Below, one piece after another: positions 2,832 to 55,536 of a stretch of DNA of 64,000 nucleotides; the first letter of the stretch is position 1, and every line of letters starts with the position of its first letter. Origin of the DNA: Anaerocolumna cellulosilytica (GTDB taxonomy: Bacteria; Bacillota; Clostridia; Lachnospirales; Lachnospiraceae). Both the position numbers and the translations under genes were made by a program. The stretch lies in the NCBI RefSeq assembly GCF_014218335.1, contig NZ_AP023367.1:4583501-4647500 (forward strand), read 5' to 3'. The notes below the pieces were generated by a model. That model was not told the DNA's origin and did not search any database. It worked only from the letters and a program-made list of their open reading frames with translations.

Positions 2832-2916
2832 GTTTAAACCATTTCATAACCTATTAGTATTTTCTATTAGGTTACTGCTGCAAACAGAATCATTAAGATT
2901 CTTGCAGCACCTTTCT
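2832..2916 (-). promoter_or_regulatory. Two-hairpin translation leader of dut (recurrent element)
   Basis: Minus-strand order: AGAAAGG (2910-2916); hairpin 1 with arms TGCTGCAA and TTGCAGCA plus an inner GAATC/GATTC stem; one G; hairpin 2 with arms TAACCTA and TAGGTTA; TGAAATGG; 7 nt; ATG. The arm sequence GCTGCA/TGCAGC differs from the GCCACA/TGTGGC of other copies but pairing is kept, as expected for a selected RNA structure. Family assignment unknown. Confidence 0.6.
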
Positions 2917-2960
2917 TTTCCTATTGTATTTAGGTAATTGTTAAACGTAGATTACCTATC

Positions 2961-3854
2961 TTATATTAAATCTTGCCCCATCATTTTTAATAATTCTTTT
3001 GCAGCCGTTGATATTGGATTGGTTCCGCCTGTGATAAGGCAAAAAGATCTATCTGAAATCTCTCTTTGAAACTTTAATTCAAATAATTCTCCTGAATCTA
3101 TATACTTCTCTGCAAAATTTCGGACCACAGATCCGATTCCTAAGTTTCTAAGTGTAAATTGTACAATCATATCACTGGTTGCCAATTCAAATTCCGGCTT
3201 TAATACCACACCATTATTCTTTAGGATTTCATCTACATAGGTTCTGGTACTTGTTATGCCTTCCAAACATACAATTGGTAATTTCTCTAAATCAGAGAAT
3301 ATTAACGTTTTTCCTTCCAGATGGCGAAATCTGCTGCCGGCTACAAAAACATCTTTGATTTTTTTTACTTCGGTTACGGTTACATCCGGCTTTGCCCGAA
3401 AAGGACTGCTTACAATTCCAAAATCTATTCTTCCGTCATAGAGATATTCCAAGGTTTCTGGTGTTGGAGCATTTGTAACCGTTACCTTAATACCCGGATA
3501 TTTTAAATGAAATTCTTCCAGATAGGATAAAAGATAGTATTGAAGAGTCATATCGCTGGCGCCAATGCGAATCTCACCATTTTCTAAATCTATCATCTTC
3601 TTGAATTTTGTTTCACCTAATAAAATATTTTCATACCCTCTTGCAATATAAGTATATAGCACTTCCCCTTCCGGCGTCAGCTTTACTCCTTTTTGGGTAC
3701 GTATAAACAGCCTGCTGCCAAGATTATTTTCCAAAAGCTTTATTCCTTGACTTACAGCCGGTTGGGATATACATAATTCTTCTGCAGCTCCGGTAAAACT
3801 TCCGTGCTTTATTACATAATAAAATATTTTATAGTATTCAAGATTTATATTCAT
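2961..3854 (-). CDS. LysR-family transcriptional regulator
   Basis: A 297-residue LysR-type regulator. The N-terminal winged helix-turn-helix covers about residues 1-60, with GSFTGAAEELCISQPAVSQ as the recognition region. The C-terminal part (about 88-295) is a periplasmic-binding-protein-like effector domain. The effector is unknown. AGAAAGG lies 5 nt before the ATG. The gene is the third of a probable minus-strand operon, 24 bp downstream of an ArsC-like gene and a small acetyltransferase. The co-transcription is inferred from spacing only, and this arrangement differs from the usual divergent LysR layout. Confidence 0.85.
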   Translation of the reverse strand: MNINLEYYKIFYYVIKHGSFTGAAEELCISQPAVSQGIKLLENNLGSRLFIRTQKGVKLTPEGEVLYTYIARGYENILLGETKFKKMIDLENGEIRIGASDMTLQYYLLSYLEEFHLKYPGIKVTVTNAPTPETLEYLYDGRIDFGIVSSPFRAKPDVTVTEVKKIKDVFVAGSRFRHLEGKTLIFSDLEKLPIVCLEGITSTRTYVDEILKNNGVVLKPEFELATSDMIVQFTLRNLGIGSVVRNFAEKYIDSGELFELKFQREISDRSFCLITGGTNPISTAAKELLKMMGQDLI

Positions 3855-3878
3855 ATGTGCCTTTCTATCCGACTGCTT

Positions 3879-4220
3879 TTATGCCCATTCCTTCCAAACC
3901 TCAGGTTTATAGCCTACTGTTGCAAGCTTTCCATTCCTTACAATTGGTGTCTGAAACATTTTCGGATGCTCCAATAGCTTCTCTTCCTTATCCGCATCAT
4001 CAGAAAGATACTTCACATAATTATCTTCGTATTCTTTGGATTTTGTATCCATAAGAAAGTCCATGCCGCCAACTGCTGCTTTTACTGCTTTATATTCGCC
4101 AAGACTCATACCGTATTTTCCCAAGTCGATGAGTTGATATTTTATTCTTCTTTCTTTAAAATAACGTTCCGCTTTCTTTGTATCAAAGCATTTTGCTTTC
4201 CCAAAAATCTGTATATTCAT
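3879..4220 (-). CDS. ArsC/Spx-family thioredoxin-fold protein
   Basis: A 113-residue protein of the ArsC/Spx/YffB family (PF03960). The active-site loop reads KCFDTKKAERYF with one Cys at about residue 11 and no second Cys in CXXC spacing, as in ArsC-type reductases rather than redox-switch Spx. The region LLEHPKMFQTPIVRNGK carries the cis-Pro segment of the fold, followed by GYKPEVW. It could reduce arsenate or another small oxidant with glutathione or an equivalent thiol, or be a regulator; no arsenic genes lie nearby. It starts 6 bp after the acetyltransferase and is followed by the LysR gene. Confidence 0.75.
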   Translation of the reverse strand: MNIQIFGKAKCFDTKKAERYFKERRIKYQLIDLGKYGMSLGEYKAVKAAVGGMDFLMDTKSKEYEDNYVKYLSDDADKEEKLLEHPKMFQTPIVRNGKLATVGYKPEVWKEWA

Positions 4221-4226
4221 ATAACT

Positions 4227-4511
4227 TTACTTGCTTCCCTCCCAGATAAGCCCCTTATACTGTTCATTTTTTCCAAACCAGAGTATAGCATAGGAACAAG
4301 TCAAAACTGCCTTTTTATTATTCTCTCTTAAGAAAACAACAACCTCCTCCATCAACTTACCGGCTATCCCTTGTCCTCGCAGGGAATCATCCACGAAGGT
4401 ATGGTTAATATCTACGACATCATCTGTTACCTTTGGAAAGGTTACTTCTGCTAAGAGCTTTCCATCTTCATTGATTGCGTAAATCCGATTACTATCCCTT
4501 GTAAATTCCAT
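4227..4511 (-). CDS. Small GNAT-type acetyltransferase (YjdJ-like)
   Basis: A 94-residue protein starting MEFTRDSNRIYA. It belongs to the short GCN5-related family (PF14542) containing only the acetyl-CoA-binding core. The signature is VDDSLRGQGIAGKLMEEVV, with the RGQGIAGKL pyrophosphate loop at about residues 50-58. The substrate is unknown. I chose this start because AAGGGAG lies 8 nt upstream; an in-frame ATG 36 bp further up has no good ribosome site. It is the first gene of the operon with the ArsC-like protein and LysR regulator. Confidence 0.75.
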   Translation of the reverse strand: MEFTRDSNRIYAINEDGKLLAEVTFPKVTDDVVDINHTFVDDSLRGQGIAGKLMEEVVVFLRENNKKAVLTCSYAILWFGKNEQYKGLIWEGSK

Positions 4512-4583
4512 ACTGTTGTCTCCCTTCTTAAAATCTTCACTTACCATATAGTATATTATATAGTATTCATTTCCTACATTGAC

Positions 4584-4611
4584 AGTATACCATGAAATGT
4601 TCTTCTGTCAA
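4584..4611 (-). promoter_or_regulatory. Promoter of the acetyltransferase-ArsC-LysR operon
   Basis: Minus strand: TTGACA (-35, 4606-4611), 16 bp, TATACT (-10, 4584-4589). The promoter lies inside a 7-bp inverted repeat (TTGACAG/CTGTCAA, 4579-4611) that could also be an operator. Confidence 0.5.
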
Positions 4612-4691
4612 TGTAAAGAAAAGTGTAAAACTTCATTTTGTACAGCAAATACGTGTTCAAAAGTCTTTCTAAGGAATAGCATTAAAACATC

Positions 4692-4724
4692 AAAAAACGG
4701 ACAATAACCTAAGTTATTAGTCCG
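4692..4724 (-). terminator. Terminator of the chemoreceptor/SpoIIAA-like unit
   Basis: On the minus strand CGGACTAATAAC and GTTATTGTCCG form a stem with one mismatch and a 4-nt loop, followed by six T. It lies 22 bp after the SpoIIAA-like gene stop. Confidence 0.8.
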
Positions 4725-4745
4725 CCTTTTCTCTTTCTTGTTGAA

Positions 4746-5132
4746 TTAAAAACCTTTGGATTTTAACCATTCATCCGCTTCTTGTTCATTTAAAAATGCC
4801 TGCTGAGGAATTTTACCGCCTACCGCTCTATTCATCTGCATTTTTACAATTGCACTATCTACAATAATTGCAGCATATTGAACTTTGTTTTCATTTAACC
4901 ATTCTGTATGTTTTGCAATAACATCACCTAAATCAGAGATTTTATATTTTCTAACGTCAGTGCAAACTGCCCATGTTTGTCCACCAACAGCAGGACCGAT
5001 TTTATTTACATACTGAGAATGATAATCTGCATAATCTTCTTTTGTCCAAAGACCTACAGGTGCGTCGTATGCTACCCTTCTGGCTGAATCGTATTTAATT
5101 GTGTAAAGTCCCTTTGGATGTGTAATTAACAT
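4746..5132 (-). CDS. SpoIIAA-like/STAS-type small protein
   Basis: A 128-residue protein starting MLITHPKGLYTIKYDSARR. The alternating beta/alpha pattern, with a central WAVCTDVRKYKISDLGD and YAAIIVDSAIV, resembles the SpoIIAA-like fold (PF11964). I see no clear phosphorylatable Ser motif, so an anti-anti-sigma role is not claimed. The start is set by AGGAGG 7 nt before this ATG; a further upstream in-frame start would read through that site. It lies 68 bp downstream of the chemoreceptor with a terminator only after it, so both probably form one transcript under the c-di-GMP riboswitch. A role as cytoplasmic partner of the receptor is inference. Confidence 0.55.
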   Translation of the reverse strand: MLITHPKGLYTIKYDSARRVAYDAPVGLWTKEDYADYHSQYVNKIGPAVGGQTWAVCTDVRKYKISDLGDVIAKHTEWLNENKVQYAAIIVDSAIVKMQMNRAVGGKIPQQAFLNEQEADEWLKSKGF

Positions 5133-5200
5133 GTTATTTTCCTCCTGATTTTTATATTTGAAATGGAGCTTAACTCCCATTCAATCATTTGTAAAAATTT

Positions 5201-6502
5201 CTAATATCTATCTAGTCTTTCTTTTAAACCTTCTGCAATGGAATACAATTCATTGGAGCAATCTGCAATTAACTGTATTAAACTATTCTGTTCCTCTACA
5301 GATGCAGATGCCTCTTCTGTGCCGGCTGCCGTTTCCTCTGATATACTTGCTATGGTGGCAATCATATCTTCTGCTTCTTTTGCATCTTCCGTCAGGGACT
5401 CCGTTGCACCAGAAACCGCCTTAACTTTTGTAGCAATAGATTCTACCTTATTAGAGATATCTCCTATTGCCTGTACCGTCTGGTTAAGGGCACTTTCCTG
5501 TTCAGTTGACAATACTTCAACTTTCTCTATTTGTATAACCGTGTTCTCGATTCCTCTTTGTACATCATTAATAATTTCTGTAATCTGCTTGCTAGATTCG
5601 CTGGACTGTTCCGCTAACTTTCGAATTTCTTCTGATACAACTGCAAAACCTTTACCATGTTCCCCTGCTCTGGCAGCTTCAATTGCTGCATTCAATGCTA
5701 AAAGATTGGTTTGTTCTGCAACACCTTTAATAACTTGTAATATTTTACCGATTTCTTTTGACTTATCCATTAAATCTGTAACTGCTTCACCAACCCGACC
5801 GGAAATCTCTTTGTTTTCTTCCATCTTTTCTTCCTGATATCGGATGGAATTACGTACAGAATCCATAGCGCCGATGGCTGCCTCTGCTAATTGCTCAGAA
5901 GCCGTCATATCCTGAGCAATACATCCTATCATTTCGGCAATATTATTTATTCTCACACTTCCACTTTCTGTTGATTCCGCCTGCTGTGTCGCTCCCTCTG
6001 CTAACTGAGATATGGACTGTGTTACTCTGGTCGAAATCTCACTCATCTCAGCAGAAGATTGCTTCATCTCACTGGATGCATAAGTAATCATTTCTACCGA
6101 TTCTTTTACAGAATGATAAAATTCCATGGACTTTTCCTGTATCTTCTTTAAATACTCCCCGTATTCTGTAAGCTCTTTACTTTGGCTAAAATCAATTTCA
6201 GAACTAGTAATACCTTCAGCCATTGACTTAGCTGCTGTAGCAAGTTGTACAATTGTTTTTAGGTTTTTACGGAAAACCATGATAAATACTGCAAAATATA
6301 CTATTACTAATATTATACTTAATAAAAATAAGTAAATTCCAAAACCACCTTTTGGTTCATAGGCGGCTCCCCCTGCTTCTTTAAGCATAGACTGGACTTT
6401 TAAGTAGATAGCTGCATAAAAGCCTGAGAAACCTAAAATAAATGTTAATAACATGGTAAGTAAATTTTTGTTTTTCAGGATTTTCCCCTTAATTGACTCC
6501 AA
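5201..6502 (-). CDS. Methyl-accepting chemotaxis protein lacking an ectodomain
   Basis: A 433-residue membrane chemoreceptor. Two transmembrane segments (about 14-34 and 54-76) are joined by a loop of under 20 residues, so there is no extracellular sensor domain. A short linker leads to a long coiled-coil signalling domain. Its hairpin tip [19 protein letters not shown], followed by [18 protein letters not shown], is the CheA/CheW contact site. No C-terminal CheR/CheB pentapeptide is seen. Translation starts at TTG, 8 nt after GGAGGTG. Upstream lies a c-di-GMP-I riboswitch with terminator, and downstream the SpoIIAA-like gene. Signal input is therefore probably intracellular or from a partner, with expression set by c-di-GMP. 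Confidence 0.92.
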
Positions 6503-6565
6503 TTTTTTGCACCTCCGATAAATTTTTTATGTATGTATTCTAAAGAGTATTTAAAACAGACCCAT

Positions 6566-6577
6566 TTAGTCGACTAA
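6566..6577. promoter_or_regulatory. 12-bp perfect palindrome upstream of the chemoreceptor
   Basis: TTAGTCGACTAA lies about 65 bp before the receptor start, downstream of the structured RNA region. It could be a protein-binding site or a hairpin extension. No regulator is assigned. Confidence 0.3.
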
Positions 6578-6582
6578 TCCCC

Positions 6583-6688
6583 ATGCAGTACCGTAAACTT
6601 GACTGCGTTACTCCTTAAATAGAAGGATTAACGCTCACTGCATACCGCGTCTGCTTACAGATATGGCACTGCCACCAAGCAAGCGGCA
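6583..6688 (-). ncRNA. Structured leader segment of unknown type
   Basis: Between the riboswitch terminator and the receptor, the minus strand can fold into nested helices. GCGTTA/TAACGC (6629-6634 with 6605-6610) encloses TCCTT/AAGGA. Outside it ATGCAGT/ACTGCAT (6637-6643 with 6583-6589) closes a larger domain. Upstream are GCCGC/GTGGC and TGCTT/AAGCA helices. I find no match to a riboswitch consensus I know. It may be a second regulatory element in the receptor leader. Confidence 0.4.
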
Positions 6689-6736
6689 TTTTACACTAAC
6701 TGACTCTTTTTTTGCTCCTGTAGCAACTTTTATAAC

Positions 6737-6772
6737 AAAAAAAGCCAAGCGTAGTCTTCACCACACCTGGCT
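6737..6772 (-). terminator. Riboswitch expression-platform terminator
   Basis: On the minus strand AGCCAG and CTTGGCT enclose GGTGAAGACTAC, followed by seven T. It sits directly 3' of the c-di-GMP aptamer and about 235 bp before the receptor start, the usual layout of a transcriptional riboswitch. Confidence 0.8.
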
Positions 6773-6782
6773 ATATTAACTA

Positions 6783-6861
6783 CTGCAACTCGACCATCAT
6801 AGCTCTTATGCCTTAGACTCGTAGCTTTGCGTCCCCACTTTTCAATGAGTTTGCCTTTATA
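6783..6861 (-). ncRNA. c-di-GMP-I (GEMM-I) riboswitch
   Basis: Read on the minus strand, the aptamer has GGCAAACTCATTGAAA, then GTGGGGACGCAAAGC, then TACGAGTCTAAGG, and closes with GGTCGAGTTGCAG. GACGCAAAGC and the flanking GAAA tetraloop helix are hallmarks of the GEMM-I class that binds cyclic di-GMP. A terminator follows at 6772-6737. It controls the chemoreceptor at 5201-6502 and probably the SpoIIAA-like gene, linking motility or chemosensing to c-di-GMP. Confidence 0.88.
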
Positions 6862-7078
6862 AAGTTAAATTCCATATTTTTATCATAAGTACTCTGTAAT
6901 CTTACTGCAACTATAATTGTATCGTTCAATATGCTTGCAAAATTACTGATAATGTAGATTATTGTCTCATTTTGTCTAGTTTTATTATAACTCAAAATTT
7001 AGAAAAGTCAATTACAAAACACCATTTTTTTATAGATTTGTGCTGTATTTGTAATTTCTAAATATTAGAAAATTTATA

Positions 7079-7816
7079 TTATAGTGCCAGTCCCCCATCT
7101 ATTACAATATTCTGCCCAACTATATATCTAGAGACATCCTGACTTAGAAAATAAGCCAGTTCTGCAACTTCCTCCGGATCGCAAAATCGCTTTGCCGGAA
7201 TTTGACTCTTATAGTATTCTGCTGCGTCTCCTAAGCTGTCGAGCATATCCGTAATAATAATTCCTGGTGCTATCGCATTGACGTTGATATTATTTGCAAT
7301 TAACTCTGCACTAAGAACACGTGTAAAGGCAGCCACACCTGCTTTGGTAGCTGTATAGCCATAGGAAGCGGGAAGATTCATAACGGATGCTAAAGAACTA
7401 ATGTTAATAATCTTACCATAATTTTGTTTAATCATGTGAGGAGCAACTAACTGACACAAGTTAAACATACCAGTTAAGTTTGTATTCACCACGTCATTCC
7501 AATCATTCTGACTCATGTCAGTGATCGTACCATATCTTACGATACCGGCATTATTAACCAGGATATCAACTTTACCAAAGTTTTCAACTGTGAAATCCAC
7601 CATTTTTTCCAAGGCACTTCGTTCTGCTATATCTGCCTGAAAGGTTAGGGCTTTTCTGCCTAATTTGGTTATCTCTGCTTTTACTTCTTCTGCTGCAGAA
7701 GTACTGCTTACATAATTAATTACTACATCTGCTCCGTGTTCTGCCAATTTTAAGGCGATTGCCTTACCAATACCTCTTGATGCTCCTGTTACTAATGCAA
7801 CTTTTCCTTTTAGCAT
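7079..7816 (-). CDS. Short-chain dehydrogenase/reductase (FabG-like)
   Basis: A 245-residue classical SDR. TGASRGIGKA at about residues 10-19 binds NAD(P). NNAG near residue 88, Ser in NISSLAS near 139, and YGYTATKAG near 152 give the Asn-Ser-Tyr-Lys catalytic set. The C-terminus YIVGQNIVIDGGLAL is typical of FabG-like oxidoreductases. The substrate is not evident. It lies 54 bp after a ThDP-dependent enzyme that probably makes a 2-hydroxyketone or aldehyde, so reduction of that product is a reasonable inference. A dedicated fatty-acid role is less likely because no fab genes are nearby. Confidence 0.85.
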   Translation of the reverse strand: MLKGKVALVTGASRGIGKAIALKLAEHGADVVINYVSSTSAAEEVKAEITKLGRKALTFQADIAERSALEKMVDFTVENFGKVDILVNNAGIVRYGTITDMSQNDWNDVVNTNLTGMFNLCQLVAPHMIKQNYGKIINISSLASVMNLPASYGYTATKAGVAAFTRVLSAELIANNINVNAIAPGIIITDMLDSLGDAAEYYKSQIPAKRFCDPEEVAELAYFLSQDVSRYIVGQNIVIDGGLAL

Positions 7817-7870
7817 AACATTCCTCCTTATTCAATCCTGTATCTTTCAAAAGTCCCGCTATAAAAGCCT

Positions 7871-10388: not shown

Positions 10389-10404
10389 TAATGAATACTC
10401 TTTA

Positions 10405-11909: not shown

Positions 11910-13343
11910 TTATACTGTTATGTCAGCTTTTAAACCTAGTAAAGCTTCATTTTCTTTTAATATTGGCTGTATTACTTCCTCAACAAATTCTTCAACCTGT
12001 TCTTTGGAACGACCGGTGTATTTTGAAGGCTCCATGGAATTTCTCAAATCCTCTAATGTCATGTTAAAAGACGGGTCTGCTGCTATTAATTCCAATAAGT
12101 TATTATCAAGACCTCTTTCTTTTACATTTTTTCCTGCTTCCATAGAAAGAGTTCGTATTTTCTCATGGAGTTCCTGTCTGTCACCACCCGCTTTTACAGC
12201 ATCCATCATAATATTTTCTGTAGCCATAAAAGGCAGCTCAGCCATTAAATGTTTCTCAATTACTTTAGGATATACTACCAGACCATCAACTACATTTAAA
12301 TATAAATCCAAAATTCCGTCCACTGCCAAAAAAGCCTCCGGCACACTAATTCGTTTGTTGGCCGAATCATCCAGCGTTCTTTCAAACCACTGCGTAGAAG
12401 AAGTAATGGCAGGATTTAAGGCATCTACCATAACATAATTAGCCAGAGAAGCTATTCTTTCACTTCTCATTGGATTTCTTTTATATGCCATTGCAGAAGA
12501 ACCAATCTGATTTTTTTCAAAGGGCTCTTCAATTTCTTTTAAATGTTGCAGTAGTCTGATATCATTGGAGAACTTGTGGGCACTTGCAGCAATTCCGGCA
12601 AGCACATTAAGTACTCTTGTATCTACCTTACGGGAGTAAGTCTGTCCTGAGACAGGATAACAATCCACATACCCCATCTTCCTTGCGATTCTTTTATCAA
12701 GCTCTTTGATACGTTCATGGTCTCCGTCAAACAATTCCAAAAAGCTGGCCTGTGTACCGGTTGTACCTTTGGAACCTAATAGTCTCATTCCATCTAATAA
12801 ATACTCAATATCATCATAATCTAATTTCAATTCCATAAGCCAAAGAGCCGCTCTCTTACCAACCGTAGTTGGCTGAGCCGGTTGGAAATGGGTAAAGCCT
12901 AAGGTTGGCAGTGCTCTGTATTCCATGGCAAACTTAGCGAGTTCACCCATTACATTAACTAACTTTTTCTTTACCAATCTTAAAGCTTCTGTCATAACAA
13001 TAATATCTGTATTGTCTCCGACGTAACAGGAGGTGGCTCCTAAATGAATAATTCCTTTTGCATTTGGGCATTGTACCCCATAAGCATATACATGAGACAT
13101 TACATCATGACGCACCAGTGCTTCTCTTTCCTTTGCAACATCATAATTAATATCTTCACTGAATTGCTTTAATTCCTCTATCTGCTCCTGGGTAATATTA
13201 AGTCCAAGTTCCTTCTCAGCTTCTGCCAGGGCAATCCATAACTTTCTCCAGGTTTTAAATTTCATATCAGGAGAAAATATATACTGCATATCCTTGCTGG
13301 CATAGCGTTCTGACATAGGGCTTACATACTTATCATAACTCAT
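11910..13343 (-). CDS. purB: Adenylosuccinate lyase
   Basis: Cleaves SAICAR to AICAR in IMP synthesis and adenylosuccinate to AMP, releasing fumarate. The 477-residue length fits the longer PurB group. The fumarase/aspartase-superfamily signature GSSAMAYKRNPMRSERI lies at about residue 288, with the catalytic Ser loop. THFQPAQPTT near 155 supplies the His region, and HLGATSCYVGDN near 100 is substrate-binding. The start MSYDKYVSP follows GTGGAG by 6 nt inside a recurrent leader (13344-13424). It lies 220 bp downstream of purF and ends at a family terminator. Possible read-through from purF is not excluded. Confidence 0.95.
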   Translation of the reverse strand: MSYDKYVSPMSERYASKDMQYIFSPDMKFKTWRKLWIALAEAEKELGLNITQEQIEELKQFSEDINYDVAKEREALVRHDVMSHVYAYGVQCPNAKGIIHLGATSCYVGDNTDIIVMTEALRLVKKKLVNVMGELAKFAMEYRALPTLGFTHFQPAQPTTVGKRAALWLMELKLDYDDIEYLLDGMRLLGSKGTTGTQASFLELFDGDHERIKELDKRIARKMGYVDCYPVSGQTYSRKVDTRVLNVLAGIAASAHKFSNDIRLLQHLKEIEEPFEKNQIGSSAMAYKRNPMRSERIASLANYVMVDALNPAITSSTQWFERTLDDSANKRISVPEAFLAVDGILDLYLNVVDGLVVYPKVIEKHLMAELPFMATENIMMDAVKAGGDRQELHEKIRTLSMEAGKNVKERGLDNNLLELIAADPSFNMTLEDLRNSMEPSKYTGRSKEQVEEFVEEVIQPILKENEALLGLKADITV

Positions 13344-13424
13344 TGTTCACTCCACTTACTAATCAGGTCTATCCCGATTAATGCCACGAATGTATGTTGA
13401 AAGAATTCTGTGTGGCTTCCTTCT
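13344..13424 (-). promoter_or_regulatory. Two-hairpin translation leader of purB (recurrent element)
   Basis: Minus-strand order: AGAAGG (13419-13424); hairpin 1 with GCCAC and GTGGC arms around AGAATTCTTTCAACA; then after one nucleotide hairpin 2, TAATCGGG pairing with CCTGATTA; then AAGTGG, 8 nt, ATG. Just upstream (13461-13484) lies a separate interrupted hairpin with CATGC/GCATG and GCAA/TTGC arms. Confidence 0.6.
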
Positions 13425-13563
13425 ATATCGTATTTTCTTTCCAACTTTCATACTAACGTCCATGCAGGCAACTTTGCTCGCATGTCTAAACTCAACACGT
13501 GAAATTGATTTGACTTCACATTATTTATTATTATAGATTTTGCTATGAAAATCAAGGGAAATA

Positions 13564-15824: not shown

Positions 15825-15908
15825 ATTTACACCACTGCATAACATACCACCAGGCATGTTACCGCCACAATTACATAGGCCGAAAGAAGCTTTTGTGGCA
15901 CCCTTTCT
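15825..15908 (-). promoter_or_regulatory. Two-hairpin translation leader of purC (recurrent element)
   Basis: Minus-strand order: AGAAAGG (15902-15908); hairpin 1 arms GCCACAA and TTGTGGC with an AGCTTCTTTCGGCC loop segment; two G, then hairpin 2 TAACATGCC with GGTATGTTA; TGCAGTGG; 7 nt; ATG. The element also reads as open frame, which would mislead automatic start calling. Confidence 0.65.
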
Positions 15909-16198
15909 TATCAATTATTTTCTTTCAACCCGGCTCTGACTGCGTGTAAAGCGTTAATCTTCAGTCACTGTTCTTTGAAATACTTTGCGATACTACACTC
16001 TTATATTACAACTTATGCGAGGGGTTTCGCAATACTTATTTGTTGTCAAGCCGGGAAATTCTCCTAATCCTATTAATTAGACCTACTTATAATATGAATC
16101 TATTTATAATAATTTTATATTTTTATTAGCTGTCATTATCACACCCATTCTATCTAACTTATCGGTAACCTATCGGTTTTAAGTTGAAAATGATAAAA
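15909..16198. other. Intergenic region upstream of purC
   Basis: No gene is supported. The minus strand has TTGACA at about 16043-16048 and a TAATAT further down, but no well-spaced promoter pair is certain. Short inverted repeats TTGCGA/TCGCAA and TGACTG/CAGTCA occur in this stretch. No purine riboswitch is recognisable. Confidence 0.3.
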
Positions 16199-19751: not shown

Positions 19752-19837
19752 ATCTATACCCATTACCTATCACAGGCTCGCCTGAGATACTGCCACAAAT
19801 AAAATAGACCTGATAATCTCTTTGTGGCATCCTTTCT
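19752..19837 (-). promoter_or_regulatory. Two-hairpin translation leader of hslO (recurrent element)
   Basis: Minus-strand order: AGAAAGG (19831-19837); hairpin 1 arms GCCACAAA and TTTGTGGC; after AG, hairpin 2 with TATC-T-CAGGC and GCCTG-T-GATA; then GGTAATGG, 8 nt, ATG. The rest of the gap to 20033 holds no feature I recognise. Confidence 0.6.
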
Positions 19838-20033
19838 GTTGTTCTATGTTTTTCAGTAAGAAGTTAGGAATGAGGTTCCTTGGAATCTTATCCCGGTATT
19901 CTTCCAACATGTGAAGATGCCTCTTCTCATCTACTGTAATTTTTAAAACTAATTTGTTTTATTTATTATAAAAAATATTTATAATTATTTTTACTTTAAC
20001 TTGCTTTTTACTGCCTTACTACCCTATCTCAGA

Positions 20034-27210: not shown

Positions 27211-27684
27211 TTATTTCTTGCCTTCTTTTACTGGCTCACCCGTGAATGGGTCAATATATTCCTTTAGTGACATTTGATCATACTGTAAATCTTCTTGTAT
27301 TTGATTCTGAATATATTCTTGTATTTTCTTTGCATTTTTGCCTACCGTATCTACATAATATCCTCTACACCAGAAATGCCTGTTCCCATACTTATACTTC
27401 AGATTCGCATGCCTTTCAAATATCATAAGCGAACTTTTCCCTTTTAAATAACCCATTATCTGTGAGACACTATACTTTGGTGGTATTCTTACTAACATAT
27501 GTACATGATCTCTACAACACTCTGCTTCAATTATTTCAATACCTTTTCTTTTACATAACATACTCAATATGCTAGCTACATCTTGTTTGATTTTTCCATA
27601 AATTATCTGCCTTCTAAACTTTGGTGCAAAAACAAGATGGTATTTACATTCCCATTTCGTATGTGCTAAACTATTCATATCCAT
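27211..27684 (-). CDS. tnpA: IS200-type Y1 transposase TnpA
   Basis: A 157-residue single-strand DNA transposase. CRDHVHMLVRIPPKYS near residue 58 holds the HUH histidines. YYVDTVGKNAKKIQEYI near 108 carries the catalytic Tyr region. The length is complete and no frameshift is visible, so it may be active. It ends with an extension containing DPFTGEPVKEGKK. AGGAGG lies 9 nt before the ATG, but that site is sequestered in a long hairpin (27691-27750), as known for IS200. Confidence 0.92.
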   Translation of the reverse strand: MDMNSLAHTKWECKYHLVFAPKFRRQIIYGKIKQDVASILSMLCKRKGIEIIEAECCRDHVHMLVRIPPKYSVSQIMGYLKGKSSLMIFERHANLKYKYGNRHFWCRGYYVDTVGKNAKKIQEYIQNQIQEDLQYDQMSLKEYIDPFTGEPVKEGKK

Positions 27685-42577: not shown

Positions 42578-42642
42578 AGTCTAGTCAAACCTTGCATACC
42601 GCAAATCAATGAACCGGTACTACCACTGCGGCATTCCTTTCC
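42578..42642 (-). promoter_or_regulatory. Single-hairpin translation leader of nadE (recurrent element)
   Basis: Minus-strand order: GGAAAGG (42636-42642); A-T; hairpin 1 with CCGCA and TGCGG arms, containing an inner GGT/ACC; then TATGCAAGG, 12 nt, ATG. The C-to-G change in the arm is compensated on the other side. Hairpin 2 is absent, as in phoU. Confidence 0.5.
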
Positions 42643-42815
42643 TAATCATATATTGAATAGGCAATTGGGAAACAATCAATTGTGTGTGGCACATCCATTA
42701 AAATGCCAATATTTCTCACTAAATAATGAGCTTCGCAATTATCTATCACATATTAAAATAGTCTTTCTTCATTCATGTAAGAAATCTATATCTTATAACT
42801 ATTAATAAATTAAGG

Positions 42816-42840: not shown

Positions 42841-42861
42841 TTTATCTTTTGTCAATGTACC

Positions 42862-43037
42862 CGAAACGCCGTTTCCTGCATTTTGACTCCTAGCCTATGC
42901 TAGGTGGGTTTCCGCATATAAGCCTCTGTCTTCCACTGCAAATGGTGGCCTGACATAATCTTATAAATTAGGAATCCCTTATTAAGTGATGTAGGTTCAA
43001 AATAACAGGAGTGTCGCACATCCCAGGAAATAACTTT
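42862..43037 (-). ncRNA. ssrS: 6S RNA
   Basis: A sigma-70 RNA polymerase-binding regulator made in stationary phase. The minus strand contains TTTCCTGGGATGTGCGACAC, then CCTGTTATTTTGAACCTACATC. This resembles Bacillus 6S-1 RNA, which has CCTGATGTG and TTTTTGAACTTACAC at the same places. The ends pair: TTTCCTG with CAGGAAA and ACTCC with GGAGT, giving the closing stem and bulges of 6S, with a long central duplex containing CCACCATTTGCAGTGG. A near-perfect promoter (43044-43072) and a strong terminator (42816-42840) delimit a transcript of about 220 nt. No protein frame exists here. Exact ends are estimated. Confidence 0.82.
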
Positions 43038-49424: not shown

Positions 49425-49434
49425 AATCTACTTA

Positions 49435-50988
49435 TTAATGTTTAAAATGTCTCATTCCTGTAAATACCATGGCTATTCCATATTCATTGCACTTATTAAT
49501 GGAATCTTCATCCCTTACAGAGCCACCTGGTTGAATAATGGCAGTAATACCTGCCTGATGAGCAGCCTCCACGCAATCATCAAAAGGGAAGAAAGCATCA
49601 GAAGCTAACACCGCATCTCTTGCTGCGTCTTCACCTATTAACTCACCGGCGTGTTCAATGCTTTGTCTTGTTGCCCACACACGATTTACCTGCCCCGGCC
49701 CAATTCCAATACTTTGTCTGTCCTTTGCAAGTGCAATACCATTGGACTTCACAAACTTAACAACCCTCCAGGCAAATAATAAATCGTTCATTTCTTTTTC
49801 ACTTGGAACACGGGCTGTAACAACCTTCATATCCTCTTCTACTAATAACTTACTATCAATGGTCTGCACAATTAAACCACCATTTACCTTTTTTAAATCA
49901 TATGCATTTTCATTCTGTGGTACTTCAATCTCTGTAAGCTTAAGAACCCTCACATTTTTCTTTGTCTGCAATAATGCCAAAGCTTCTTTTTCATAATCCG
50001 GTGCAACAATCACTTCTAAGAATACCTTAACCATATCCTCCGCCATCTTTAGAGTAACCATACGATTTGCCACTACAATTCCTCCAAAGATAGAAACCTT
50101 GTCGGCTTCATAGGCTTTATTCCAGGCCTCATATATATTCTCACTGCTGCCCACACCACAAGGATTTCCATGTTTGCAGGCAACCACTGTAGGTTCTGTA
50201 AATTCTTTTAGCAATTCAAGTGCGCCGTTAGTATCATTAATATTATTAAAGGATAACTCTTTTCCATTTAACTGTACAGCATCTGCTATAGAACCTGTCA
50301 ACCTGCCAATTTCCCTGTAAAAGGCTGCTTTTTGATGGGGATTTTCTCCATAACGCATGTCCTGAACCTTTTCAAAGGTCATGGTAAGAGTGTCTGGAAG
50401 TTCCGTATCCTTTCTTTCCTTTCGAAGATAGTCTGCAATCATAGTGTCATAGCTTGAAGTGTGCATAAATACCTTTTGCATCAGATAGAATTTCGTGTCT
50501 AAAGATACTGCACCTTCTCCCTTTAGCTCCTTTAAGACCTTGGTATAATCATCAGGGTCAACAACAACTGCAACATCCTGATAGTTTTTTGCAGCACTGC
50601 GAAGCATGGTAGGCCCACCAATATCAATGTTTTCTACTGCCTCTTCTCTGGTAACCCCATCCTTTAATATAGTTGCCTTAAAAGGATACAAATTTACCAC
50701 AACAATATCTATGGTCTCTACTTCAAGCTCCTTTAACTGTTCCATATGTTCTTTCTTGCTTCTCATCGCTAATAACCCGGCATGAACTTTCGGATGCAGT
50801 GTTTTAACTCTGCCATCCAGACATTCCGGAAAACCTGTTACTTCCGAAATTTCTATGGCTGCTATTCCTGCCTCTTTTAACTTACCATAAGTTCCTCCGG
50901 TAGAAATAATTTCTATGCCCATTCCCACTAATTCCTTGGCAAATTCTACAATACCGGTCTTGTCTGATACACTAATTAATGCTCTCAT
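49435..50988 (-). CDS. purH: AICAR transformylase/IMP cyclohydrolase
   Basis: Bifunctional enzyme for the last two steps to IMP. The product is 517 residues. The N-terminal cyclohydrolase domain has [13 protein letters not shown] and [14 protein letters not shown], with [15 protein letters not shown] near 65. The C-terminal transformylase has [15 protein letters not shown] near 207, [11 protein letters not shown] near 265 and DAFFPFDD near 445. I set the start at MRALISVSD, where AAGGAGAG lies 5 nt upstream. An ATG 36 bp earlier is in frame but sits in the riboswitch terminator's T-run. A ZTP riboswitch precedes it. Confidence 0.96.
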
Positions 50989-51014
50989 ACTACTCTCCTT
51001 TTGTATTTTAATAG

Positions 51015-51073
51015 AAAAAACCACCCAGGTAACCGGGTAATATACATACTTATATATGTATCGTTACCTAAGG
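51015..51073 (-). terminator. Terminator of the ZTP riboswitch
   Basis: On the minus strand CCTTAGGTAAC can pair with GTTACCTGGG, followed by GG and six T (51015-51020). An alternative hairpin, GGTAA..TTACC with GATACATA/TATGTATC-like arms, can form within it. Presumably ZTP binding prevents the terminator. Confidence 0.75.
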
Positions 51074-51147
51074 CTGCCCAGGCGGTCGGCTATTATTATT
51101 TTGTACTCCCCGTGGGTAAACTCCCACTTTCCGCCAGTCGTACAAAT
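51074..51147 (-). ncRNA. ZTP (pfl) riboswitch upstream of purH
   Basis: The minus-strand RNA contains TTTGTACGACTGGCGG, then GTGGGAG..ACCCAC hairpin, GGGGAGTACAAAA closing P1, and after a short linker CCGACCGCCTGGGCAG. The ACTGGCG, GGGGAG and CCGCCTGGGCA blocks are the hallmarks of the pfl/ZTP class. CCGCC can form the known pseudoknot with GGCGG. ZTP (or ZMP) accumulates when folate-dependent AICAR transformylation fails, so control of purH is the textbook context. An overlapping terminator follows directly. Confidence 0.9.
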
Positions 51148-51433
51148 CTGCCTATAGTATACCTTACTATATTTATTATTTCAAGTTGTTTTTGCAAGCA
51201 GCTACAACAAGTTAGTTGCCGAGTCTACACTTTAGAAAGTTTTAAGGAATGCTATTTGCTATTTGGTATTTCCTGTTATATAATAAACACCATACAATAC
51301 AAGCTGAATTTATTCAACTTACAATGTTTATATTATATGTCAAATAGAAATCTAAAAATGTAACACAGAAATGTCTAAGAGGCATAAAACAGGGCAGTAT
51401 AAGTAAGAGCTTCCCTGTGAAAGGAGTTTATTT

Positions 51434-52090
51434 GTGAAAAGATTGAAAATGACTGATATTTTGATTGGTATTGTATTTACCTTTCTGTTTATATCTGTTG
51501 GAGTCATTGCAGCTGTCAACTTCCGCTACCTTTATTATTTTGATATTAATTATCTGAAAATCCCCGAACTTTCAGGACTGGATGCGGCTATAATCCGCGA
51601 AAATTATGATGCTTTAATCGATTATAATTCTCCATTTTTTAAAGGTGGGTTAAACTTTCCGACTCTCCCCGCCTCTGCCTCTGGTTTACAACATTTTGAA
51701 GAAGTAAAGAGTATATTTATGTCCTTTTATTTTATTGCTTTTATCAGTTTTGTACTTGCTCTTATCATTATTCTGTACAAAAAAAGAAAGCGTGATTACA
51801 GTTATTTATTTATCTCCTCCCTAACAGTGATTATACTTCCAATCATTGTAGCTATAGGCTGCGCCATAAATTTTGATGCCGCCTTTATATTCTTTCATAA
51901 GATATTTTTTCGAAATGACTATTGGATGTTCGACCCGGTTACCGACCCGGTCATAACCATATTGCCGGACACATTTTTTCTCCATAGCCTGCTGTTTATT
52001 ATTGCCTGTGTTCTATTAGGCAGTATTCTACTATACACTATCTACCGAATACTCATAAATAGAAGGTGGTCTTCTTTAACTTTAAAATAA
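51434..52090 (+). CDS. TIGR01906/DUF1461 integral membrane protein, Lit-like
   Basis: A 218-residue protein with four membrane segments (about 9-30, 93-113, 123-147 and 185-207). A loop of about 60 residues lies outside between the first two. The segment FHKIFFRNDYWMFDPVTDPV near 155 is the family's conserved His-containing motif. From family knowledge some members are Lit, the lipoprotein intramolecular transacylase that moves an acyl chain to the N-terminal Cys of lipoproteins; whether this one does so is inference. It starts at GTG with AAGGAG 7 nt upstream. It is a single-gene unit divergent from purH. Confidence 0.75.
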   Translation: MKRLKMTDILIGIVFTFLFISVGVIAAVNFRYLYYFDINYLKIPELSGLDAAIIRENYDALIDYNSPFFKGGLNFPTLPASASGLQHFEEVKSIFMSFYFIAFISFVLALIIILYKKRKRDYSYLFISSLTVIILPIIVAIGCAINFDAAFIFFHKIFFRNDYWMFDPVTDPVITILPDTFFLHSLLFIIACVLLGSILLYTIYRILINRRWSSLTLK

Positions 52091-52171
52091 GAATTCACAC
52101 TGAATATAGTCTGCTACTATATTCAAAGTACGAACAGCAATAAAGTAAATATATACTCTCGCTTACAAAAT

Positions 52172-52232
52172 AAAATGCTCACTTACCACCTACTGTTTTA
52201 TAGCCAACTGTAGGATGTAAATGAGCATTTTA
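52172..52232. terminator. Bidirectional terminator
   Basis: AAAATGCTCACTTAC and GTAAATGAGCATTTT form a long stem (one mismatch) extended by CCTAC/GTAGG. T-rich ends are found on both strands. It separates the convergent Lit-like gene and phoR. Confidence 0.82.
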
Positions 52233-52299
52233 AATATAAAGTATTATAACTAGCTATTCAACCTATTTAAATGGCATGAACCTATCAAATCAAATGAAC

Positions 52300-54048
52300 T
52301 TATTTGAGTCCTGCCAGGTAGGGAAAGCTGATTTTAAATTCTGTTCCAACGCCTAAGGTACTATCTACCTGAATATTTCCATTATAAAGCTCTACAATAT
52401 GCTTTACTATGGACAAGCCAAGACCAGTCCCGCCTTGCTTTCTGGAACGTCCCCTATCTACCCGGTAGAATCGTTCAAAAATTCTAGCCAGATGTTCTTT
52501 CTCGATTCCAATACCGGTATCCTTAATTTGTACAAACAATGTATTCCCTTCCTCCAGACAATCAACGGAAATAGTTCCTTCCTCCGTATATTTAATAGCA
52601 TTGTCTAGCAGGTTGATAAATAATTGCTTCATACGGTCTGGATTACAGTAAAAGGGTCTTACATAAGGCTTCGGGCAGAAATTTATCTTTACCTTATCGG
52701 TAATCTTTGGCTGAAGCAGCTCAATCACCGCATTAATGGTTTCATTTATATCACAGGGCAAGGATTCATATTCCCTTTTTGATTCAATTTCTGATAATAA
52801 CAATATGTCCTGTATCAGACTATATAACCGTTCCGCTTCTATATCTATAATATCGAGAAAACGGTTTGCTATTGCTTCATCCTTAATTGCTCCGTTTTTT
52901 AGTGTATCAATAAAGCCTCGGATTGAGGTTAATGGTGTCTTCAATTCGTGAGTTACATTGGATACAAAATCTGTACGTATACTTTCTAGTTTTTTAAGCT
53001 GTGTAACATCCTCAATAATCAAAAGTACACCAAAATAATGTTCGCCTTCCAGACCAAGTGGTGTTGCTGTAACTCTGATGTTACGTATTGTTTTCTTTAA
53101 CAGGGTTCCCTCTTTTGTCACACTGCTATTCGTGTCCCTTACCTGATCAATGGCATCAAATACCGCAGCATTTCGTAAGAAATTATATAAGGATACACCC
53201 TGAATTATTTCTTTATCCGGCTTAACCACTTCTAAAAAAGCTTTATTGTAAAATAATATCTCGCTGGTATCTCCAATTGCTACTACGCCGGCTGTCATAC
53301 TGCTCAACATAGCTTCCAATTCAGCATTTCTCTTGGTTAAATTATCAATTGTACCTTTTAGATTAGCAGCCATAATATTAAAAGAATCAGCCAGTTTTCC
53401 TACAACGGATTTGTCCCTTGTATATATCTTAATATTATAATCGCCTTCAGATATACGCCCTGCGGCTCTTGCTACTTCGTTAACAGGCTTTGCCAACAGG
53501 TTCGTAAATACTGCTGCTGCAATTACTGCAAGTATAAAACAAAGTATGATAGCATACACTATGGAATCTGCAAACTGTCTGTTTAAAAATTTAATTTGGG
53601 CTATGGGCAGGGATATTCGCAGTACTCCTTCTAAATCTCCGTTCTTTAGTGGGACAGCACTATAGGAATACTCCTGTCCCATAGTTTTGGAATAACGGTT
53701 AACAGTTACACTGTTACCCCTTAAAGCACCTATAACCTCTTCCCGGCTTTTGTGATTTTCCAGTCTTTCCTCGGTACTAGAGTCTGCCAGCACCTTTCCC
53801 TCTTTATCAATTAAAGTGATACGAAACTTATATTTTACCGAATATTTTAGTACAAAGGTTTCATAATCATTATTGGAATCCATTTCTTCCTCTGAAAAAA
53901 TATCTGCCATCAGTTTTGCCTGATTCAAATAATACTCCTGGCTTTGCTCATAGACATACTCATAGCCTTTATTCCAGAAAATAAATGCAGACATGCCAAT
54001 GGCGAGCAGGATGATAGCAAGGTAACTGAAATATAGTTTCTTATGCAT
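52300..54048 (-). CDS. phoR: Phosphate sensor histidine kinase PhoR
   Basis: A 582-residue kinase. Membrane segments at about 5-25 and 163-185 flank an extracellular domain. A HAMP domain (about 187-240), a PAS domain (about 245-340) and HisKA with SNVTHELKTPLTSIRGF (phospho-His about 360) follow. HATPase_c has LDNAIKYTEEG, KDTGIGI and GGTGLGLSIVKHI. The PAS domain and its place 12 bp after phoB mark it as PhoR. It responds to phosphate limitation through the Pst transporter and PhoU. AGGAGG lies 6 nt before the ATG. It is last in the pst-pho cluster. Confidence 0.93.
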   Translation of the reverse strand: MHKKLYFSYLAIILLAIGMSAFIFWNKGYEYVYEQSQEYYLNQAKLMADIFSEEEMDSNNDYETFVLKYSVKYKFRITLIDKEGKVLADSSTEERLENHKSREEVIGALRGNSVTVNRYSKTMGQEYSYSAVPLKNGDLEGVLRISLPIAQIKFLNRQFADSIVYAIILCFILAVIAAAVFTNLLAKPVNEVARAAGRISEGDYNIKIYTRDKSVVGKLADSFNIMAANLKGTIDNLTKRNAELEAMLSSMTAGVVAIGDTSEILFYNKAFLEVVKPDKEIIQGVSLYNFLRNAAVFDAIDQVRDTNSSVTKEGTLLKKTIRNIRVTATPLGLEGEHYFGVLLIIEDVTQLKKLESIRTDFVSNVTHELKTPLTSIRGFIDTLKNGAIKDEAIANRFLDIIDIEAERLYSLIQDILLLSEIESKREYESLPCDINETINAVIELLQPKITDKVKINFCPKPYVRPFYCNPDRMKQLFINLLDNAIKYTEEGTISVDCLEEGNTLFVQIKDTGIGIEKEHLARIFERFYRVDRGRSRKQGGTGLGLSIVKHIVELYNGNIQVDSTLGVGTEFKISFPYLAGLK

Positions 54049-54060
54049 GAAAAACCTCCT

Positions 54061-54765
54061 TTATGCAAATTTATATCCCATACCTCGTACTGTCTTAATA
54101 TATATCGGATGACTTTCATCCTGTTCAATTTTTTTACGCAAATTACTAACATGAACATCCACAGTCCTGGTTTCTCCAATATAGTCGTAGCCCCATACCT
54201 TTTCAAGTAAGTTATCCCTTGTAAATACGATTCCTCGATTTTTAGCTAAAAGATACAAAAGTTCAAACTCTTTATAAGATAATTCCACTGCTTCACCCCT
54301 TACAGTTACGGTCCGTCTTGACCGGTTAAGCTCCAGATAATCTATAACAATCTTTTCTTCTTTTTCTGCTTCATCTGTCTCAAAGCTGGCCTCACTTCTT
54401 CTAAGAACTGCTTTTATTCTTGCTAAAAGCTCATGCACACCAAACGGTTTTACCAAGTAATCATCGGAGCCAACTTCCAGCCCTACTACCTTACTGATTT
54501 CATCACCTTTTGCAGTGAGGAAAATAACCGGAAGTGTTCTGTGTGGCTTACCTGCCCGGATACGGCGTAAAACTTCAATACCATCAATACCCGGAAGCAT
54601 CCAATCCAGCAATACAATATCGATTTTTTCTTTATCAATCAATTCTAACGCTGTCTCTCCGCTATCTGCCTGTATTACTCGAAAACCATCCCTTTCTAAA
54701 TTGTAGGTCAGCAATTCTAAAATATGTTCTTCATCATCCACTGCTAAAACAGTCTTCATATTCAC
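54061..54765 (-). CDS. phoB: Phosphate regulon response regulator PhoB
   Basis: A 234-residue OmpR-family regulator (PhoB/PhoP type). The receiver has DDEEHILELL at the start (Asp10-Asp11), DIVLLDWMLPGIDG with phospho-Asp near 55, FLTAKGDE and YLVKPFG near 106. The winged helix has LLEKVWGYDYIGETRTVDVH and the C-terminus KTVRGMGYKFA. It is expected to bind the Pho boxes upstream of pstS (59562-59606). GAGG lies 6 nt before the ATG. It sits between phoU (62 bp away) and phoR (12 bp). Confidence 0.94.
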   Translation of the reverse strand: MNMKTVLAVDDEEHILELLTYNLERDGFRVIQADSGETALELIDKEKIDIVLLDWMLPGIDGIEVLRRIRAGKPHRTLPVIFLTAKGDEISKVVGLEVGSDDYLVKPFGVHELLARIKAVLRRSEASFETDEAEKEEKIVIDYLELNRSRRTVTVRGEAVELSYKEFELLYLLAKNRGIVFTRDNLLEKVWGYDYIGETRTVDVHVSNLRKKIEQDESHPIYIKTVRGMGYKFA

Positions 54766-54826
54766 CTCTTATTCCACCTATTGAATCGCGTACATTGCGT
54801 TTTGATCTATAGAGCATCCAGTATTA

Positions 54827-55474
54827 TCATCCAATTACTAAGTCACCCGTTACAATAAAGGTTATCCACTCTGCGATATTTGTTGCATGGTCTGCCATTC
54901 TTTCCAAATATTTTATAATCATCAAGTAACAGATACATTGCGGTACCATATTTGAATCTTTTTGCATGGTTTCTGACAATTCTTCCGTTATTTTTTCAAA
55001 ATAAGTATCAACTTCATCATCTGCCTGAATTACCTTCGTAGCCTTTTCCAGATTGCCTTCTACAAAACTGTCAATGGTACCAATTACCATCTTTTTCATA
55101 GCACTAATCATATCAGACAAATTTTTGGGAGGATTTACTTTGGGCAGTTTACTTAAACGTATAATGTATTCTGATATATCCACACAGTGGTCTGCAATTC
55201 GTTCAATGTCTGTAATAATTTTCATAATAGATGTAATTTTTCTTAAGTCGCTTGCTAACGGCTGCTGCTTTGCAATAATATTAATACAATCCTTTTCAAT
55301 CTGCTGTTCCAATAAATCAATTTCATCATCCCGATCTATTATTTTCTTTGAAATGGCGGTATCCGTATTATCAAGTGCCAATATCATTTCATTTGTTGAT
55401 AGTTCCAGAATACTCCCCATCTTTATTACGTCATTGTTCAGCGCTTCCAGTTGTGCAATAAATGTTTGTCTCAT
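54827..55474 (-). CDS. phoU: Phosphate transport regulator PhoU
   Basis: A 215-residue protein of two PhoU helical repeats (about 15-105 and 115-205). Each has a metal-binding DEIDLLE or DDEVDTYFE motif, and ERIADHCVDISEYI and ERMADHATNIAEWI. It relays Pst transporter state to PhoR. I place the start at MRQTFIAQLEAL; a TTG eight codons earlier is in frame but lies inside the recurrent leader hairpin. It has its own leader although it sits within the pst-pho cluster, 195 bp after pstB. Confidence 0.95.
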   Translation of the reverse strand: MRQTFIAQLEALNNDVIKMGSILELSTNEMILALDNTDTAISKKIIDRDDEIDLLEQQIEKDCINIIAKQQPLASDLRKITSIMKIITDIERIADHCVDISEYIIRLSKLPKVNPPKNLSDMISAMKKMVIGTIDSFVEGNLEKATKVIQADDEVDTYFEKITEELSETMQKDSNMVPQCICYLMIIKYLERMADHATNIAEWITFIVTGDLVIG

Positions 55475-55536
55475 ACTATATACCCATTGCAGCCACAATT
55501 AAAAGGTTGAAAGAATTCTAATGTGGCATCCTTTCT
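55475..55536 (-). promoter_or_regulatory. Single-hairpin translation leader of phoU (recurrent element)
   Basis: Minus-strand order: AGAAAGG (55530-55536); AT; hairpin 1 with arms GCCACA-TTAGAA and TTTTAA-T-TGTGGC; directly TGCAATGG; 9 nt; ATG. Hairpin 2 is absent. The TTCTTTCAAC loop segment is shared with purB. Confidence 0.6.

Follow-up and report, generated by a model that had tools for sequence, protein, structure and literature searches.

A pseudoknotted RNA module of about 100 bases precedes many start codons of Anaerocolumna cellulosilytica and may carry a split Shine-Dalgarno site

Results

Six leaders of one layout

The 64,000-nucleotide (nt) stretch analyzed here (the window; A. 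cellulosilytica contig NZ_AP023367.1, positions 4,583,501 to 4,647,500) contains six minus-strand genes, i.e., dut, purB, purC, hslO, nadE, and phoU, whose leaders all run in the order purine block, hairpin 1, optional hairpin 2, TGG/GGTG-like block, 7 to 12 nt, ATG. This shared order had been described in an initial annotation of the window, and we found it in all six leaders at the coordinates first given. The leaders are copies of an element that we describe as a folded RNA module of about 100 bases, present in about 150 copies in this genome (5,430,627 bases, one contig) and situated mostly right before the first codon. The products of purB, purC, hslO, nadE, and phoU matched NCBIfam models above the cutoff, and that of dut matched below it while still being recognizable. 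The purine block reads AGAAAGG in dut, purC, hslO, and phoU, GGAAAGG in nadE, and TAGAAGG in purB. In the following list, P2 and P3 denote hairpins 1 and 2, P1 is a further helix of up to 11 pairs (described below), and SD stands for Shine-Dalgarno sequence.

2832-2937, minus strand: dut copy; AGAAAGG 2910-2916; P2 2903-2908 / 2877-2882 (GCTGCA/TGCAGC); P3 and 3' block within 2832-2876; P1 weak, 5 of 11 pairs; start codon 2829-2831
13344-13445, minus strand: purB copy; TAGAAGG 13419-13425; P2 13412-13416 / 13383-13387 (GCCAC/GTGGC); P3 and 3' block 13344-13382; P1 8 of 11 pairs; start codon 13341-13343
15825-15931, minus strand: purC copy, between a decayed old SD and ATG; AGAAAGG 15902-15908; P2 15894-15899 / 15864-15869; P3 and 3' block 15825-15863; P1 11 of 11 pairs; start codon 15822-15824
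19752-19859, minus strand: hslO copy; AGAAAGG 19831-19837; P2 19823-19828 / 19792-19797; P3 and 3' block 19752-19791; P1 weak, 6 of 11 pairs; start codon 19749-19751
42578-42659, minus strand: nadE copy; GGAAAGG 42636-42642; P2 42627-42632 / 42598-42603 (GCCGCA/TGCGGT); 3' block 42578-42597, no P3; P1 weak, 6 of 11 pairs; start codon 42575-42577
55475-55559, minus strand: phoU copy; AGAAAGG 55530-55536; P2 55522-55527 / 55492-55497; 3' block TGCAATGGGTATATAGT 55475-55491, no P3; P1 10 of 11 pairs; start codon 55472-55474

The chance level for P1 is about 4 of 11 pairs, to be compared with the 5 to 6 pairs of dut, hslO, and nadE. The arms of P2 covary, as initially annotated, but the pair GCCACA/TGTGGC occurs in three leaders rather than four, the outer A of purB facing a C; the nadE hairpin has an additional outer G-U pair.

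The initial annotation knew of no named motif of this form, and at the thresholds used Rfam 15 supplied none: its 4,227 covariance models, run on the window at gathering cutoffs, matched only a c-di-GMP-I riboswitch, 6S RNA, and a ZMP-ZTP riboswitch and none of the six leaders, and at E ≤ 5 or 3 they gave no match on the element at 10 further loci. We found no description of the element in the open-access full-text literature (most subscription journals lay outside this search), nor did a term search in the accessible part of PMC8632094 return one.

A genome-wide RNA family

The pattern GAAAGG-N1-4-GCCACA-N10-40-TGTGGC matched the genome 33 times, versus 0 for the reversed pattern, which argues that the copies are not random. 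GCCACA-N16-46-TGTGGC alone occurred at 44 places versus 4 for the reversed control (this pattern is palindromic, and each place is listed on both strands). A covariance model built from 32 copies, which includes P2 and not P1, gave at least 144 matches at E ≤ 1, at least 128 of them at E < 0.01, with 150 of 5,853 candidates scored; an evenly spaced sample of 400 kb held 11 matches at E < 0.01, i.e., about 150 genome-wide by extrapolation. We took the 137 best of the 144 matches and fetched flanks for 133; the matches at E ≤ 0.01, with locus L280 left out (loci and genomes are cited by L and G numbers), form a set of 135 copies, 130 of which have an open reading frame (ORF) of at least 60 codons. 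The six window copies scored E ≤ 6e-4 and the next window match 0.41, although these scores are partly circular because the six copies contributed to the model. That the RNA family is real we regard as virtually certain.

Folding energy alone would have missed the family. The z-scores against shuffles were -5.2 for dut, -2.6 for purB, and -0.9, -1.1, +0.4, and 0.0 for the other four leaders, and the nested minimum-energy fold of purB lacks hairpin 1.

An H-type pseudoknot

The 5' arm of P1, with the consensus GGTTGAAAGAA, is complementary to TTCTTTCAACC inside the loop of hairpin 1; since P1 thus pairs into the P2 loop, the predicted structure is an H-type pseudoknot, with AGAAAGG in its first loop. 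The full order starts with the 5' arm of P1 and continues through an A-rich linker that contains AGAAAGG to the 5' arm of P2 (GCCACA); the loop with the 3' arm of P1 comes next, P2 is closed by TGTGGC, and an optional P3 hairpin, TGCAATGGGTGTA, and AUG follow. The third loop of some copies holds an extra hairpin. In the model alignment of the 135 copies, 85.6% of 2,369 cells were paired, relative to 80.5% after shuffling and 37.6 to 56.5% with partners slid, both sides had changed in 17 of the 18 pairs, and 0 of 500 shuffles reached any of five measures. An alignment of the 32 copies that was not fitted to structure, and in which the search pattern had left P2 little room to vary, gave 85.1% paired cells and both-side changes in 11 of 18 pairs, values reached by 0 to 4 of 500 shuffles. 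These patterns indicate that compensatory changes have preserved both P1 and P2. P1, together with the copy number of about 150, the gain between SD and AUG, and the tandem arrays described below, was missing from the initial annotation.

P3 mostly starts 0 to 5 nt after P2 and forms a stem of at least 7 bp in 71 of the 97 tails of at least 25 nt, versus about 14 from shuffled tails; among arms of at least 6 bp, 80 of 84 are distinct in sequence. The earlier description of hairpin 2 as variable yet paired is supported. P1 has at most 6 of 11 pairs in 30 of the 135 copies; 29 of these keep all five core P2 pairs, and the purine block is kept in 27 of 29 weak-P1 copies. Where P1 has at least 9 pairs (92 copies), the five core P2 pairs are kept in 86. 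As judged from these alignments, under a model that favors P2, P1 appears not to be needed to keep the rest of the element. At L355:1662-1772, P1 and the P2 3' arm are intact, the P2 5' arm is gone, and a AGAAAGGAGGT run is present; a gene start behind this copy was not found, and it is possibly a relic.

Position at start codons

An ORF of at least 60 codons starts within 130 nt downstream of 129 of the 133 copies with fetched flanks. Under a stricter definition (ATG, at least 100 codons, 4 to 75 nt after P2, frame closed upstream), a start was found for 114 of 135 copies in the sense direction, 1 of 135 on the opposite strand, and 118 of 4,000 random places (3%), so that the position directly 5' of a start codon extends well beyond the window. 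Because the model ends before the start codon, this adjacency is not a product of the search. Of 23 matches in evenly spaced samples from three genomes, 20 were followed within 90 nt by an ATG ORF of 50 codons or more; the other three were two adjacent copies at L346 (with a P1-type hairpin after the second) and L355.

The genes behind the element have no metabolic theme. Of the 127 downstream proteins, 111 were aligned; the 111 scanned matched 213 Pfam families, the commonest, ABC transporter, occurring in 5 of 111; the lean toward nucleotide, NAD, and phosphate metabolism seen in the window is thus not borne out. An NCBIfam scan of 20 downstream proteins returned queA, pgm, eutC, and pepT above the cutoff besides the window genes and, below it, a cysteine desulfurase, a nitrogenase-type protein, a response regulator, and a glycosyltransferase. 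We rejected a metabolite riboswitch recognizable by gene function, as these genes are not tied to one metabolite. Homology to ATGAAA as an insertion target was likewise discarded, the excess being slight: element genes begin with ATGAAA in 24 of 130 cases (background, 21 of 177) and with ATGA in 79 of 130 (background, 93 of 177).

Gain between the SD and the start codon

The purC leader was read in 13 genomes, i.e., the source genome and 12 others. Ten of the 12 lack the element, and all 10 have AGGAG 5 to 6 nt before ATG; the source genome reads ...CACGCAGTCAGAGCCG, element, ATG, and its sisters CACGCAGATAGGAGCC..ATG. The remaining two carry a copy with a compensated P2, ACTGCC/GGCAGT (G013), and a short degenerate copy (G002). 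None of the 12 other genomes has the pseudoknot element at hslO, where two of them have a P1-type hairpin, and none of the 11 that are readable at the nadE start has it there; these sister leaders mostly carry AGGAG, GGGAG, TGGAG, or a similar SD. In the hslO leaders of G012 and G014 (L310 and L309), AGAAAGGTTAGGTATAGA.A stands before ATG or nearly so, the two purine blocks, AGAAAGG and GGTATA, adjoining without hairpins, a state that may be ancestral, due to deletion, or due to chance.

Traces of an older SD recur elsewhere. Outside the source genome, an SD-like pentamer lies 4 to 20 nt before P1 in 50 of 124 copies, versus 9 of 124 for a control stretch, and mostly 6 to 8 nt before the xTG of P1; the 124 come from 152 regular-expression copies, the rest lacking a P1-arm match. 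The element also stands in tandem, as two, three, or four or more copies with a period of 105 to 107 nt, each unit starting at a would-be start-codon position. Such head-to-tail arrays of the pseudoknot element occur at L090, L120, L100, L040, and L346; in the L100 array, P3 is common to both units, while P1 and the loop differ. Several genes carry the element in two or three species, implying that older copies have been kept. On the purC comparison and the footprints elsewhere, we consider it highly probable that the element was inserted between SD and AUG.

Distribution across genomes

Matches at E ≤ 1e-5 were present in 14 of 15 Anaerocolumna genomes, ranging from at least 1 to at least 106 per genome, and in none of 26 genomes from other genera and families of the order; per-genome counts are lower bounds, with 107 candidates scored per genome in the genus and 11 in the family. 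At least 9 of 396 family genomes, from six genera, had matches at that depth. With one genome taken per species, at least 120 stretches matched; carriers among those listed were Anaerocolumna, Robinsoniella peoriensis, Clostridium sp. KNHs205, a Herbinix metagenome-assembled genome (MAG), and other MAGs, Robinsoniella being the second copy-rich genus. The exact pattern was found in 11 of 397 family genomes, six of them with single, P1-less, chance-like hits, and the reversed pattern occurred in about as many genomes. Single copies in other genera precede genes read from their translations as dnaA, dapB, and a transcription regulator; P2 of the dapB copy is GCCATAT/ATATGGC. Two hits in Bacteroidetes MAGs (L138 and L155) were set aside as chance-like, having no P1. 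A contig of a "Pelosinus" MAG (L103) shares its sample series with other positive MAGs and may be mis-binned. The exact pattern had 0 matches in viral contigs, and a phage origin was rejected for this reason.

A candidate split SD

The complete AGAAAGG motif is present in 84 of 130 copies, and the reversed motif in 1 of 130. Among changes at its inner three A's, 14 of 15 are A to G; since the 16S rRNA tail of a congener ends GGATCACCTCCTTTCT, such a change keeps a wobble pair with U (the congener's tail is quoted, a search of the source genome not having located its own). The G's of the 3' block fall at positions -10 to -8, and the block lies about 5 nt from AUG. The longest run of the block (at least 4 nt) pairs with the 16S bases adjoining those used by AGAAAGG, at a spacing of 4 to 8, in 44 of 130 copies, relative to a mean of 2.8 and a maximum of 8 in 300 shuffles. 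The path from AGAAAGG to AUG shortens from a median of 80 nt when linear to 18 nt with P2 and P3 folded (quartiles, 17 to 20; 5 to 95%, 14 to 31 nt) in the 71 copies with a P3 of at least 7 bp. The 29 copies counted as P3-less have 6 to 23 nt (phoU, 19; nadE, 23), several of their starts being misassigned; some assigned starts fall inside P3, probably in error, and distort some of these distances. The split-SD idea of the initial annotation fits this register, spacing, and substitution pattern.

Discussion

We favor, with some reserve, the interpretation that a spreading cassette is placed into SD|AUG junctions, where its own SD, split by hairpins, makes initiation possible again. In the mechanism that we propose, AGAAAGG on the mRNA would pair with CCUUUCU of the 16S tail and GGGUG with the adjoining CACCU, while P2 and P3 would fold away; with these hairpins out of the path, the two half-sites would act as one SD at normal AUG spacing. 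The role of P1 might lie in spread or tuning and not in basal initiation, as P2 and AGAAAGG persist in copies whose P1 has decayed. That the element functions as such a split-SD initiation module seems plausible and slightly more likely than not. More tentatively, we consider that it may be a new mobile or self-copying element that targets the initiation site, i.e., one that enters between SD and AUG, stacks head to tail, and survives by supplying a folded ribosome-binding site in two halves, from which the host gene continues to be translated as its old SD decays, with P1 serving the copying step.

The phage T4 genes 25 and 38 offer an experimental precedent, in that a helix between SD and AUG bridges a spacing that would be too long when linear, and destabilizing this helix lowers translation, as described in PMC3014915. 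The T4 cases, as described there, comprise two genes with a simple structure and the whole SD upstream; the element combines a pseudoknot and a hairpin, putative half-sites on both sides, about 150 unrelated genes, and insertion-like spread. Its folded spacing of 18 nt is longer than the 5 and 11 nt given for T4 (PMC3014915), from which it follows that the second half-site would have to contribute.

This longer spacing is also the first of several observations that weigh against our interpretation. Regarding the split site, 86 of the 130 copies do not pass the register test for the 3' block, pairing of at least 5 nt by that block is found in 49 of 130 copies versus about 41 after shuffling, and the outermost A of AGAAAGG has no A-to-G bias (T 13, G 12, C 4). 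Regarding the structure, 4 of 6 window copies and 1 of 3 others fold no better than shuffles in nested folding, in which P1 and P2 are mutually exclusive; the conservation of P2 and AGAAAGG is partly ascertained, because both are part of the model and P2 guided the 135-row alignment, and the comparison of P1 with P2 shares this bias. Regarding insertion, some hslO and nadE sisters have weak or unusual SDs only, loss in sisters might explain part of the lineage-specific presence, and the old-SD footprint in the source genome is weak (24 of 130 copies versus 14 for the control; 15 versus 5 in the better-scoring half and 9 versus 9 in the other). No terminal inverted repeats were seen, the one long inverted repeat, P1, having its 3' arm inside the element; inspection by eye of purC and nine other pairs gave no clear target duplication (flanks had drifted, and several pairs were filled in both genomes); and no carrier enzyme was found. 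The source genome has four matches to Y1 transposases, one being the IS200-like domain at window positions 27301-27657 (minus strand), and G006, G008, and G010, with at least 81, 81, and 106 copies, have none at E ≤ 0.001; we therefore rejected a Y1 (IS200/IS605) transposase as the mover.

Among the alternatives, a cis-regulatory RNA (riboswitch, thermosensor, or protein site), whose pseudoknot gates AGAAAGG and makes the roughly 150 genes one regulon, survives best, though we judge it unlikely. It would account for a strongly covarying pseudoknot with a ribosome-site motif in its first loop, for tandem copies, and for the mutual exclusion of the P1 and P2 hairpins noted above; moreover, the P1 3' arm (CUUUC) could pair instead with GAAAG of the SD-like block. 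A single regulon is difficult to reconcile, however, with downstream genes that have no common function and with orthologous genes that differ in the presence of the element; 30 of 135 copies with at most 6 of 11 P1 pairs nevertheless keep P2 and mostly AGAAAGG, and an Rfam match is absent. The preQ1-type pseudoknot riboswitch, which acts on translation, is similar in being a compact 5' leader pseudoknot with the ribosome site inside or adjoining (PMC9410914, in the part compared), whereas the element has no common pathway, far more copies, no sign of a ligand, and a P1 that is decayed in those 30 copies.

Miniature inverted-repeat transposable elements (MITEs), repetitive extragenic palindromic (REP) sequences, and BOX repeats are typically intergenic, occur in either orientation, and often have terminal inverted repeats or target duplications. 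The element resembles them in being short, non-coding, dispersed, folded, and variable in copy number, and it could be an ordinary repeat of the MITE or REP kind, or a by-product of leader recombination, that is tolerated at starts and whose SD likeness is an A/G-rich coincidence. Lineage-specific presence, tandem arrays, the old SD remaining upstream, and copy numbers (as lower bounds) from 0 or 1 to more than 100 among congeners are all in line with this view. We nevertheless consider it improbable: copies are sense and start-adjacent (114 versus 1 of 135), have undergone compensatory changes after insertion, show an A-to-G bias within the SD-like block, and lack terminal inverted repeats, the P1 3' arm being internal. 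The initial annotation had raised a MITE with target duplications as a possible identity; neither terminal inverted repeats nor clear duplications were seen at the few comparable junctions, and what stands is the insertion-like behavior.

A small leader gene, in which the xTG of P1 (TTG/GTG AAA GAA AAT) starts a short peptide that stops close to the AUG and couples translation to the main gene, can practically be dismissed: many copies are readable as a frame of about 34 codons and an SD-like pentamer is frequent 6 to 8 nt before xTG, but the frame is not kept (offsets from xTG to GCCACA modulo 3 of 69/37/21 in 127 of 169 copies), many frames stop after 3 to 12 codons, and changes follow the pairing.

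With respect to the cassette that we favor, TAACTGA direct repeats are known from Beggiatoaceae, Cyanobacteria, and some Bacteroidetes (PMC4679880); in the parts of that paper compared, they likewise stand in many copies nucleotides upstream of starts, have no functional theme, mostly lack an SD nearby, and have been suggested to act in translation. They differ in being arrays of a heptamer with little SD character, and neither a pseudoknot nor a split SD appears in those parts (PMC4679880). If our interpretation is correct, well over 100 genes of one bacterium would be translated from the ribosome-binding sites of an invading structured repeat, which would constitute a route for the wholesale rewriting of initiation signals. 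It would also provide a natural case, replicated about 150-fold, of hairpin-split SD sites in which the tolerance of SD-anti-SD pairing for inserted structure becomes directly testable, and would pose the new question of what machinery places DNA exactly between an SD and a start codon.

Other cassette types and neighboring features

At least two further cassette types exist in the genus. The second, in the source genome, is built from repeats 70 or 78 nt long that combine a GTTGAAA...TTTCAAC hairpin with another hairpin and ATGGGAGTTAA. At L368:2823-2982, a pair of such units ends directly at a start codon, and a nine-unit array in L361 (reverse complement, about 2464-3051) has its nearest same-direction ORF about 280 nt further on; a relative precedes hslO of G013. 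The third type, in G009 (L387, reverse complement, about 12846-13133), comprises three units of about 93 nt that end at the ATG of an 84-codon ORF. All cassette types start with xTTGAAA directly after an SD-like run, and several share an SD-like 3' end. These common features suggest that a general process operates in the genus, one not confined to the pseudoknot element.

P1-type hairpins also lie near the starts of hslO in G009 and G013 and of nadE in G009, there upstream of the SD (L311, L306, and L325), and a P1-type hairpin of a different kind comes after the two pseudoknot copies of L346. A recurrent leader upstream of P1 at L099, L114, L091, L084, and L167, composed of a hairpin and a CATGTTTGGAAG-like block, is perhaps a further cassette type. 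In the window itself, the 6S RNA gene (42854-43032, minus strand) lies directly upstream of the nadE leader, and the c-di-GMP-I and ZMP-ZTP riboswitches occupy positions 6781-6865 and 51069-51151, respectively, both on the minus strand.

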